Shown here piece after piece: positions 23,953 through 26,639 of a stretch of 56,308 nucleotides of DNA. The stretch's first letter is position 1. Every line of letters starts with the position of its first letter. The stretch comes from Armatimonadota bacterium (lineage in GTDB: Bacteria; Armatimonadota; Fimbriimonadia; Fimbriimonadales; ATM1): the NCBI GenBank assembly GCA_021324165.1, contig JAJPJR010000044.1, positions 1-56,308 on the forward strand. Direction: 5' to 3'. The position numbers and the translations under genes are program-made. The notes below the pieces were generated by a model. The model was given only the letters and a program-made list of their open reading frames with translations. It did no database searches and had not been told where the DNA came from.

Positions 23953-24305
23953 ACCTTGTCATTATGGCTTTGGCACATCGGACTGCACAACGTATTCGAC
24001 TCGGTGCCGCCCAGTAGACGTTGGAACACACCACTTACCTGACGCCCGATCACACATCGAGGTTTTGCAAAGCACGCATCGTCGTGACATTCAGCGCTCT
24101 TTGGGCCAAAGAGGGGAAATGTAAGAAGCACGTTTCAATCGCAAAACTCACCCCACCGCCCCCTATTACGCTCCCCCCTTACCACGCTGCCCCCTGCCAT
24201 GCAGGGGGAAGCCCCGTGAGCGAAAGCGAACGGTGAAGGGGGTTCTCGCACCGGCGCACCCGCAAATAAAACACAACGGATCTTTGCGGGACGCAAACCG
24301 TCGCG
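23953..24305. other. Gene-poor stretch with a dispersed repeat
   Basis: I see no supported gene. Short frames on either strand have compositions like repeat translations. The segment holds a pyrimidine-rich part (24150-24200) and the hairpin repeat at 24188-24242. Possibly remnants of lost genes. Confidence 0.5.
24188..24242. repeat. Dispersed repeat, copy D
   Basis: Contains CCCCCTGCCATGCAGGGGG (perfect hairpin) then AAGCCCCGTGAG and a stretch ending in AACGGTGAAGGGGG. The same order occurs at 56168-56221 with small changes, 32 kb away. It resembles the genome-wide palindromic repeats that often lie between genes. Confidence 0.8.
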
Positions 24306-24347
24306 AAAAAAGAAGGGGCATCTCGTCTCGGCCAAACGAAATGCCCC
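24306..24347 (-). terminator. Intrinsic terminator ending the riboswitch transcript
   Basis: On the minus strand GGGGCATTTCGT pairs with ACGAGATGCCCC (one G-U), followed by TTCTTTTTT. It lies about 115 bases after the riboswitch terminator, so read-through RNA would stop here. The sequence is strong for a terminator. Confidence 0.75.
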
Positions 24348-24350
24348 ATG

Positions 24351-24446
24351 TCAGGAGGTGTCATAGCCGGCCCGGGGCTCCTTCCCGCCCCAAAGCCAAC
24401 AGCGACGCTTCACGATGACCGTGCCTGACTCAACGATAAGCCTCAC
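24351..24446 (-). CDS. Possible short ORF between riboswitch and second terminator
   Basis: A 31-codon frame starts at GTG (24446) and ends at TGA just before the second terminator; the same frame is open further up, with an alternative GTG at 24509 (52 codons) inside the riboswitch terminator. It reads VRLIVESGTVIVKRRCWLWG then GGKEPRAGYDTS. No clear ribosome site was seen. It is the only frame that fits the space behind the c-di-AMP switch. Could be a regulated micro-protein, a remnant of a lost gene, or chance. Confidence 0.2.
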   Translation of the reverse strand: MRLIVESGTVIVKRRCWLWGGKEPRAGYDTS

Positions 24447-24461
24447 TTCTACGTGGCCGAC

Positions 24462-24497
24462 AAAAAAGCCGCGCTCGCCATTGGACGAAAACGCAGC
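24462..24497 (-). terminator. Riboswitch expression platform terminator
   Basis: On the minus strand GCTGCG pairs with CGCGGC (one G-U) before TTTTTTG. The loop holds TTCGTC (24484-24489), which can pair with GACGAA at the 3' strand of aptamer helix P1 (24541-24546). These are mutually exclusive pairings: ligand-bound P1 would free the terminator. This is an OFF-switch model from sequence only. Confidence 0.6.
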
Positions 24498-24542
24498 CGT
24501 CTCGACCACTCGGCAACGCTGCCGATGTTCGGGCCCTCGCTT

Positions 24543-24653
24543 CGTCTACGGGGTTAGCTGCCGGGCTCGGGCCAAGAGTTACCCTATCCGCTCTCGCGGA
24601 ATTCGCCCCAGGGTCTGGGTCCCCCGTTTTCCCCGGTCAAGGGAAATTAGACG
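24543..24653 (-). ncRNA. Cyclic di-AMP riboswitch (ydaO/yuaA type) aptamer
   Basis: The minus strand carries the conserved ydaO-class blocks in order: P1 5' strand CGTCTA, GGGGGACCC, GGGGCGAATTCC, a hairpin CCgcgagagcGG, TAGGGTAACTCTTGG, CCCGAGCCCGGCAGCTAAC and P1 3' strand TAGACG. These match the family pattern (GGGGGAACC, GGGGTGAAT, AGGGTAACTCT, CCGAACCCGtCAGCTAACC). A TATTAT at 24680-24685 could be its -10 box. The class senses c-di-AMP and usually represses cell-wall, potassium or osmolyte genes. Here no ordinary gene follows; see findings. It lies right after the rhomboid-like gene on the same strand. Confidence 0.9.
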
Positions 24654-24731
24654 TCGCCGGTGTCTCACCGGCTAATAGGATAATACCGCACAGTTTTCCA
24701 ATCCGTTCCGGCTCAAACAAAAAACTCGCAT

Positions 24732-25487
24732 CTATTTCGAGGCCGAACCGGGTTCGTCATCATCTGACCCCCAGCTTCGTTCGAACAGCTCCTTCAAACG
24801 CCGGCGCTCGTCCTCGGCTTGGCGGCGCTTCTCCCAGCTGATCCCTTCGTAATCGCCTTCTTTTGCGGCTCGGCGTGCCCTCTCCGGCACCCTAAGACGG
24901 CCGCTGGCATAAGCCCAAACCCCCGCAAACGGCAGTGCATAAAACGGAGCCTGAATCGGCGCCGAATATGAATACGCCATCACCGTGATGACCGCAACCG
25001 CCCAGCCGATCCACCTGGCCCCGACAGGAATCGCAAAATAGAGCAGCACGCGGGCCCTCGGATTCCGAACCGCCCATGCAACCACGCAATAACCCGTCAG
25101 CAGAGCCATCGAGCCGATGACCTTCGGGTTCCCGAACAGAGAGCATGCCGCCGACGCCAAAACCCCCGTGAAAACCGTGCTCGCAAAAGTAAACCCGACG
25201 AATCTGACCGTCCCCCAAGCGCGCTCGATCGGAATCGCGAAAAAATACAGCCCCATAATAATGAACAGGGTGCCTACCGGCTCCATCCCAAGCAGCGGAT
25301 AGGTGACCAGCGTCCACGGCCGCTGAAAACCCTCTGCCGTGTTCAACCCGACTGCCCAAACGAACGACGCAAGACGATCCGGCGACCCCGAAAGCGAAAA
25401 CGACACGAGCATTCCCGCCGCGGCCAGAGCCATCAACACATAGGCGGCAGGGCAGCCCGAACCGGCGAATCTCCTCAAGTTTTTCAT
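24732..25487 (-). CDS. Rhomboid-like membrane protein, probably not proteolytic
   Basis: The 251-aa product has about six predicted helices between residues 12 and 200 and a charged C-terminal tail (Arg/Glu/Lys-rich, acidic end). The arrangement GLYFFAIPIERAWGTVRFVG matches the rhomboid helix 2-loop region (xExxWG). At the catalytic position the sequence is GSMALLTGYC rather than GASGAxxG, and the His of the last helix is missing (PFAGVWAYASG). It is therefore likely a pseudoprotease or a rhomboid-fold scaffold. It ends about 80 bases before the c-di-AMP riboswitch on the same strand. Role unknown. Confidence 0.7.
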   Translation of the reverse strand: MKNLRRFAGSGCPAAYVLMALAAAGMLVSFSLSGSPDRLASFVWAVGLNTAEGFQRPWTLVTYPLLGMEPVGTLFIIMGLYFFAIPIERAWGTVRFVGFTFASTVFTGVLASAACSLFGNPKVIGSMALLTGYCVVAWAVRNPRARVLLYFAIPVGARWIGWAVAVITVMAYSYSAPIQAPFYALPFAGVWAYASGRLRVPERARRAAKEGDYEGISWEKRRQAEDERRRLKELFERSWGSDDDEPGSASK

Positions 25488-25597: not shown

Positions 25598-25623
25598 GGA
25601 ACGTCCCAGGGTTGAGTGCGTTA
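25598..25623 (+). promoter_or_regulatory. Candidate ECF-type promoter of the sigma factor gene
   Basis: GGAAC (25598-25602) and CGTTA (25619-25623) are 16 bases apart, the spacing and type (GGAAC/AAC - N16 - CGTx) of many ECF autoregulated promoters. The start would fall at the ATG (25628), a leaderless mRNA. The 140-base gap to the divergent rhomboid-like gene holds no other feature I can support. Confidence 0.35.
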
Positions 25624-25627
25624 GGAA

Positions 25628-26209
25628 ATGAGTGAGTATTCAGGCGGGGCGATATCTGAACTCTCCGATGGAGAGTTGTTGGGGCTGGCACAGTCGGGCC
25701 AGCGCGCCGCCTTCGAGGTTCTTTTCCACCGTCATCAAGATCGCGTATATTCGATCGCATTGGGGATTCTGGGAGACGCAAACGAGGCGCGCGACGTGGT
25801 GCAGGAGACTTTTCTCAGGGCGTACAAGCGCCTGGGTTCGCTGAATCAGGACAAAGGTTTGTTGGCATACATCTGCCGAACTGCGAGCAACGCCGCCATA
25901 GATATTCTTCGAAGTCGAAGGCCGGCGAGAACCGTATCGTTGGACGCGCGGTTCGAACTGGGATTCGATACCGCCGATCCGCAATCAACTCCCGATATTC
26001 AAGTCATCCGCGACTCGCAGGCAGACGTTGTTTTGGATGCCGTGGTGAGCTTGCCCGAAGAGCAGCGATTGGTGATCGTGCTGCATCATTTGGAAGGTTT
26101 ACAACTCGATGAAATCTCTTCGCGGCTCAAAATTCCAGTGGGAACCGTAAAAAGCCGCTTGGGTCGAGGACGCGAAATGCTGCGAAGAAAACTGGTGGGA
26201 CGGGTTTAG
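25628..26209 (+). CDS. ECF-family RNA polymerase sigma factor
   Basis: Directs RNA polymerase to a stress or envelope regulon. The 193-aa product has sigma region 2 (FHRHQDRVYSIALGIL, then DVVQETFLRAYKRL near residues 57-70) and region 4 (SLPEEQRLVIVLHHLEGLQL through IPVGTVKSRLGRGREMLRRK), with a short linker and no region 1 or 3, as in ECF factors. The next gene, one base later, encodes its zinc anti-sigma factor, so the pair is a classic signalling unit. The upstream GGAAC-N16-CGTTA suggests autoregulation. Which signal it senses cannot be read from sequence. Confidence 0.95.
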   Translation: MSEYSGGAISELSDGELLGLAQSGQRAAFEVLFHRHQDRVYSIALGILGDANEARDVVQETFLRAYKRLGSLNQDKGLLAYICRTASNAAIDILRSRRPARTVSLDARFELGFDTADPQSTPDIQVIRDSQADVVLDAVVSLPEEQRLVIVLHHLEGLQLDEISSRLKIPVGTVKSRLGRGREMLRRKLVGRV

Positions 26210-26210
26210 A

Positions 26211-26639
26211 ATGCAAACGTTAGACTGCGCAAGAGTGAGACAGATGATTGCCGAGGCATCGTCGCAGCAGCTTGCCGCCGGAATGCCCGGTCTCGCCAAA
26301 GATCACATCGCAGATTGTGCGCAATGCGCGGCATATCTGAAGTCGCTGCAAGCGATTTCCGACACGCTTGGCAAATCCATCGTGCCTGCGCCGCCGGAGG
26401 TTTATCCAAACGTTGTGAGCGCTTTGAACCCCAGTCCAAGCATCTTCACTCGAAGATTGATTGTGCTGCTGTGTGTGCTCGTGGCGATCATGGCCGCAGC
26501 CGCTTACGTTTGGCATTACTATTACAAAATCAACAACCCCGAACCCGACACCATGGCTAATAAGGCAGGGTGCTCACTGCTTTCGAAGCCAACGCAAACG
26601 CAATCGAAAGCATCGCCATCAAACCGGTCCCGCAGCTGA
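26211..26639 (+). CDS. Zinc-finger anti-sigma factor, membrane-anchored
   Basis: Holds the ECF factor inactive at the membrane until a signal releases it. The 142-aa product has an N-terminal zinc anti-sigma domain with a Cys near residue 6 and HIADCAQC near residue 32 (the His-x3-Cys-x2-Cys of the ZAS family). One helix follows (about 83-103), then a periplasmic tail of about 35 residues. The tail (Ser/Thr/Gln-rich) overlaps the 3' end of the convergent OPT gene by 83 bases and looks like read-through of that gene. It begins one base after the sigma gene stop, so the two are translated together. Confidence 0.9.
   Translation: MQTLDCARVRQMIAEASSQQLAAGMPGLAKDHIADCAQCAAYLKSLQAISDTLGKSIVPAPPEVYPNVVSALNPSPSIFTRRLIVLLCVLVAIMAAAAYVWHYYYKINNPEPDTMANKAGCSLLSKPTQTQSKASPSNRSRS

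Follow-up and report, generated by a model that had tools for sequence, protein, structure and literature searches.

What does a c-di-AMP riboswitch control when no consistent gene follows it? To our knowledge, the known examples of this class are leaders that control protein genes. The question is raised by a minus-strand locus in the window analyzed here, a stretch of 56,308 nucleotides that corresponds to contig C56 of genome G000 (2.33 Mb, 97% complete). An earlier note, made from the letters of this DNA, described there an aptamer followed by two terminators, and proposed that the switch controls a short RNA or a micro-protein, was orphaned by gene loss, or belongs to the 3′-end of the transcript of the preceding rhomboid-like gene. 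The locus was compared with those of the nearest relatives, G001 to G007, which together with G000 make up family f1 of the poorly studied Fimbriimonadales (n = 8). All eight genomes carry the same unit, consisting of a promoter motif, a 5′ hairpin, the aptamer, a first terminator (T1), a structured noncoding element, and a second terminator (T2). The reading preferred here, with a probability of about two in three, is that this unit represents a free-standing RNA gene, in which a c-di-AMP OFF switch would have a conserved small noncoding RNA as its regulated product.

The aptamer and its expression platform

The aptamer matches RF00379 at 24663-24529 on the minus strand, where its cmscan score of 82.5 bits (E 9.9e-18) exceeds the gathering score of 38. 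The match spans all 134 model positions (1-134) with no broken pair marked, is the sole Rfam match within the window, and was also recovered in whole-genome searches for RF00379, which covered 61 genomes. The earlier note had named the RF00379 covariance model as the check on its minus-strand ydaO/yuaA aptamer, which is thereby borne out over its full length and above the gathering score. The probable transcript start is marked by a 5′ hairpin, GCCGGTG/CACCGGC (24656-24672, minus strand), visible in the sequence and in the family alignment. Family comparison also reveals a promoter-like motif upstream (24680-24709, minus strand), composed of GGAAC (24709-24705)-N17-GGTATTAT (24687-24680). In the form G[AGT]AAC-N17/18-[AG]GTA, it stands at a near-equal distance from the aptamer in all eight genomes. 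Its frequency in shuffled upstream regions is at most 0.55% for each genome, a significance that is descriptive because the pattern was written after inspecting the same f1 sequences. The motif does not precede any c-di-AMP aptamer of f1 outside these eight loci, and a sigma-70 consensus scan did not detect it.

T1 (24462-24497, minus strand) is a hairpin with a U tract in all eight genomes; that of G000 folds at -15 to -17 kcal/mol and is followed by six T, in agreement with the terminator first placed there from the sequence. A simple consensus terminator scan, which does detect T2, misses T1, probably because its stem is bulged. The 5′ arm and loop of T1 form the antiterminator partner, as the P1 3′ strand (GACGAAGCGAGGGCCC, 24531-24546, minus strand) can form an alternative duplex with 24498-24483. 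The complementarity claimed at the outset between the T1 loop and the P1 3′ strand (GACGAA/TTCGTC) holds, and the pairing continues beyond the loop into the T1 5′ arm (GGCTGCGTTTTCGTC, 24498-24484). In G000, the duplex reaches -16.4 kcal/mol, a value equalled or bettered by 75 of 1000 shuffles of the partner. Equivalent duplexes range from -16.6 to -21.6 kcal/mol in six relatives, with a weak one of -8.9 in G005, where 88 of 1000 shuffles do as well. An antiterminator that overlaps P1 is present in seven of the eight genomes and beats shuffles strongly in G001-G004, G006, and G007; across the family, the usual P1 3′ strand is GACGAAGCGAGAGCC and the usual T1 5′ arm GGCTGTGCTTCGT. The expression platform of T1 and antiterminator is therefore coupled to P1 in the family, more weakly in G000 and G005.

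This layout is that of an OFF switch, a direction we infer from anatomy and precedent. For kdpFABC in B. thuringiensis, c-di-AMP has been shown to switch expression off by way of a terminator (PMC6488665). The unit resembles the ydaO/yuaA riboswitches of RF00379, such as the kdpFABC leader, in its full aptamer and intrinsic-terminator platform and in the OFF response expected of it. It differs in its output: protein genes are controlled there, whereas here a structured RNA is the conserved read-through product.

In the proposed mechanism, transcription would start at the unit's own promoter just past the rhomboid-like gene, and the first ~140 bases would fold into the c-di-AMP aptamer. At high c-di-AMP, P1 would be stabilized and T1 would form, stopping transcription to leave a leader RNA of ~210 nt. 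At low c-di-AMP, the P1 3′ strand would instead pair with the T1 5′ arm, so that RNA polymerase would pass T1 and read through into a ~365-nt RNA carrying the element (24429-24350) and ending at T2. The element would then act in trans, by base pairing or protein binding, as EutX/Rli55 does. The parts of this scheme (aptamer, T1, alternative pairing, promoter motif, element, and T2) are established at the level of sequence and comparison; action of the element in trans is what we infer. In EutX/Rli55 (adenosylcobalamin; Enterococcus, Listeria), a ligand-controlled terminator decides the transcription of a noncoding effector that acts in trans (PMC5821096), and the f1 element is by comparison a candidate trans-actor. 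The f1 unit is like it in its aptamer, in its first terminator, which c-di-AMP would stabilize, and in the conserved, putatively noncoding effector that comes next. The two systems differ in the ligand class, which is c-di-AMP in f1, in the host, which belongs to Armatimonadota, and in the element, which is unlike the EutV dual-hairpin site. An own terminator, such as the EutX/Rli55 effector has, together with no controlled protein gene in cis, is clear in G000 and G001; in several of the others, T2 has a weak tail and a surA-like gene follows.

A conserved element between the terminators

In the alignment of the eight loci, conservation runs past T1, where a variable spacer is followed by a conserved block, GTCAGG(N)1-2CGGTCA...GAA...CGTC...GAYACCTCCTGAC, and then by the long hairpin of T2. 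The element core of G000 (GTCAGG..CGGTCA .. GACACCTCCTGAC), supported by covariance model R1 and a consensus fold, occupies 24350-24429 on the minus strand. It ends in the near-invariant GAYACCTCCTGAC (24350-24362, minus strand), seen in the alignments as the 3′ strand of the main helix, with GTCAGG, GGT, and GTC as its partners in the consensus fold. R1 was trained on six f1 sequences with G000 and G002 left out, and these two genomes serve as model-independent tests. The model scores 64.2 bits for the element of G000 (24433-24312; E 2.5e-13) and 51.7 bits for that of G002, whose unit is divided over two contigs; there the element sits at the end of a contig, and its 5′ strand is possibly affected. 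The element is present in all eight f1 genomes and, among the 291 genomes of the phylum surveyed with R1, these are the only ones with convincing matches. Given that identity to the rhomboid-like protein of G000 is only 32-44% in the relatives, this conservation of the RNA counts as strong.

Several candidate matches and assignments were rejected. Two 28-bit R1 matches elsewhere in the phylum were treated as chance, as were exact-pattern matches in Dyadobacter, Streptomyces, one deltaproteobacterial record, and one alphaproteobacterial record, which score 7.6-16.9 bits; they come from a pattern scan of named genomes that also recovered family f1. A record labelled 'Phycisphaerae' (L072, JAPKGY010000067.1), whose element equals that of Armatimonadetes ATM1 in both score (130.2 bits) and length, is probably a mis-binned contig. 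Rfam holds no credible match to the element, the best being L31-Firmicutes at 11.8 bits (E 5.6, chance), and the element was not found in viral contigs. A multi-copy element was ruled out, the stretch being single-copy in G000. A tRNA-like 5′ half suspected by eye after the aptamer (GCCGAGTGGTCGAGACGGC) was also dropped, as ARAGORN reports no tRNA and the family alignment has a variable hairpin there.

The fold of the element was assessed in several ways. With the eight sequences, 99.4% of cells are paired in the stated structure, compared with 92.3% for shuffles and 41-54% when the structure is slid, figures that lean toward that structure because the alignment was fitted to the model. RNAalifold, applied to the same eight sequences, pairs GTCAGG/GGT/GTC with GAYACC-T-CCTGAC, thus extending the closing helix by GGT/ACC and GTC/GAY; this extension and an alternative P2 hairpin are mutually exclusive. 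The closing helix GTCAGG/CCTGAC appears in the unconstrained minimum-energy fold of all seven sequences tested, and the G000 element is predicted to fold at -38.7 kcal/mol with this helix present. As the helix is almost invariant, it gains little from covariation, and its support comes from folding energy.

No reading frame in the element is shared across the family. The frames that follow T1 differ between genomes, and indels of one or two bases break the frame within the conserved core, which speaks against the micro-protein once considered as an output. The short-RNA option has fared better, being backed comparatively by a conserved, structured, and apparently noncoding read-through product in all eight genomes.

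The RNA is closed by T2 (24306-24347, minus strand), which in G000 is a hairpin of 14 pairs at -23 kcal/mol with the tail TTCTTTTTT, consistent with the second strong terminator that had been described. The measured gap between T1 and T2 is 114 bases, close to the ~115 bases of read-through first estimated. Double-sided changes affect nine of the 11 modelled T2 pairs across the eight sequences. The U tract of T2 is good in G000 and G001 and weak in G003, G004, G006, and G007. Directly past T2, at 24170-24245, a REP-like palindromic intergenic sequence lies where surA synteny breaks in G000; repeats likewise follow T2 in G001.

Neighboring genes and alternative readings

A surA-like gene lies downstream of the unit on the same strand in six of the eight genomes, in G005 beyond one inserted gene, and in G002, G003, G004, G006, and G007 it is followed in the same direction by a mazG/methylase gene. 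This arrangement would suit a long dual-terminator leader of a surA-like/mazG operon, one that originally regulated in cis and is vestigial in G000 and G001. The weak T2 U tracts keep such a leader alive as an explanation in the surA-bearing G003, G004, G006, and G007, and a dual terminator after one aptamer is known from the Bc1 c-di-GMP riboswitch (PMC11218506). Bc1 is alike in having two successive terminators behind a single aptamer, but there the terminators are 28 bp apart and protein genes follow, whereas the gap here holds a conserved element. Against the leader, a conserved -10-like motif, GCGTCTATACT, is located just before the surA-like start codon in G002, G003, G004, and G006. Furthermore, the surA-like orthologues of G000 and G001 are found on other contigs (C28 and C258, respectively) without the element, while the unit, with the only strong element match and a T2 with a good U tract, stays beside the rhomboid-like gene, and the G001 element still scores 112 bits. 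A leader of this kind is considered unlikely. The gene for a rhomboid-like membrane protein (24732-25487, minus strand; PF01694, E 8e-7) adjoins the aptamer in seven of the eight genomes and is ~3.7 kb away in G007. Together with the displaced surA-like genes of G000 and G001, this indicates that the unit persists when either neighbor changes. The suggestion of orphaning by gene loss holds in part: a surA-like neighbor does lie elsewhere in G000, but the RNA unit itself has been kept, with P2 weakened in that genome.

The element could also be an undescribed aptamer with T2 as its platform, which would make the locus a tandem riboswitch. A junction-like conserved sequence, a closing helix, and a hairpin immediately after it do recall an aptamer and its platform, and in some genomes GGGG of T2 offers a possible pairing partner for ACCTCC. 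However, this competitor of T2 would be short (4-6 pairs vs 11-14 pairs), no credible Rfam match supports an aptamer, and no consistent gene follows the unit in G000 and G001, all of which render a tandem arrangement very unlikely. A similarly low probability is given to a unit that is real in the relatives and decaying in G000. The G000 element has the second-lowest score of the family (64 bits), has partly lost P2, and contains an extra base before GACACC; in addition, Shine-Dalgarno sites that match the 3′ strand with at most one mismatch are absent at the start codons of convincing genes in this genome. Decay is opposed by the stable fold of the G000 element and by its intact promoter, aptamer, T1, closing helix, and T2. 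Finally, a 3′-end of the rhomboid-like mRNA with no separate unit, as would befit the common strand and an aptamer that starts 68 bases past the stop codon, is highly improbable, given the promoter motif between gene and aptamer in all eight genomes and the ~3.7 kb of other sequence in G007.

Possible action of the RNA and supply of c-di-AMP

If the free-standing RNA gene is real, it would provide a new output for the second messenger c-di-AMP with an unusual mode of action, a new RNA family, and a riboswitch-gated noncoding RNA that joins EutX/Rli55 from a distant phylum. It would also suggest a test for 'orphan' riboswitches, namely to seek a conserved noncoding element ahead of the next terminator. 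Searches of open-access papers gave none naming Fimbriimonadales together with riboswitches, and no title or abstract listed in them treats a c-di-AMP-controlled small RNA; most subscription papers fall outside this scope. The novelty of a c-di-AMP riboswitch with a putative noncoding RNA output in one Fimbriimonadales family, with an element outside Rfam, is thus provisional.

The GAYACCTCCTGAC strand, paired in the consensus fold, is similar to the end of 16S rRNA that carries the anti-Shine-Dalgarno sequence. Ribosome-binding sites complementary to this strand (ACACTCAGGAGGTGT) stand before small lipoprotein genes in G003, G004, and G006, and G005 has a similar site. Since a control Shine-Dalgarno pattern likewise finds lipoprotein and secreted genes, lipoprotein targets are a lead and not evidence.

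An ECF sigma factor gene (25628-26209, plus strand; PF04542, PF08281, PF07638) is divergent from the rhomboid-like gene, as it is in G002-G005. It is followed by a probable zinc anti-sigma factor (26211-26639, plus strand) with HIADCAQC (HxxxCxxC) and a hydrophobic stretch, which has no credible Pfam match and is named from motif and position. In G000, G002, G004, and G005, these two genes are neighbors of the one for the rhomboid-like protein; in G003, the sigma gene is. The rhomboid-like protein is perhaps a pseudoprotease rather than an active protease, as the GxSG serine-protease motif was not found in G000 or in relatives with a recovered frame. An ECF-type promoter motif, GGAAC-N16-CGTT (25598-25622, plus strand), precedes the sigma gene with the same spacing in relatives: GGAAC-N16-CGTT/CGTA (CGTW) occurs in four of five genomes (G000, G003, G004, and G005) and was not found in G002. 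This motif has the -35 in common with the RNA promoter and differs from it in -10 and spacing. A search for an ECF regulon by promoter pattern was abandoned, as the remaining exact matches give no coherent gene set.

ECF-sigma-dependent envelope small RNAs occur in enterobacteria. The likeness of the unit to these lies in the adjoining ECF sigma gene, GGAAC at -35, and an anti-Shine-Dalgarno-like strand. The difference lies in the RNA promoter, N17/18-GGTA against the N16-CGTW of the sigma gene, and sigma dependence is here a candidate property. It is a speculative and distinctly unlikely idea that the unit encodes an envelope-stress RNA, for which an ECF-sigma-type promoter and low c-di-AMP would both be needed and in which GAYACCUCCUGAC would repress small lipoprotein mRNAs at their ribosome-binding sites.

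Regarding the ligand, G000 has another RF00379 copy, on contig C13, and encodes a diadenylate cyclase domain on contig C67, so c-di-AMP is probably made in this organism. At the level of gene content, one DAC domain (PF02457) per genome is found in all eight f1 genomes.

The C13 copy (G000:C13:9795-9933; L001, L040) belongs to a second group of c-di-AMP aptamers, with L018, L019, L020, L029, L032, L034, L039, L004, L013, and L024 as further members. Aptamers of this group sit before a basic protein of ~100 aa (LTEFDVRRE..I....HP.RKARRLL.IAR..RR.A), for which a Pfam scan of the first 70 residues in two members gave no match, and these proteins look like a c-di-AMP-controlled small protein family. 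In neighboring families of the order (L003, L005, L006, L010, L011, L017, and L023), several aptamers precede apparent hisB and hisH genes, which look like an unexpected tie between c-di-AMP and histidine biosynthesis.
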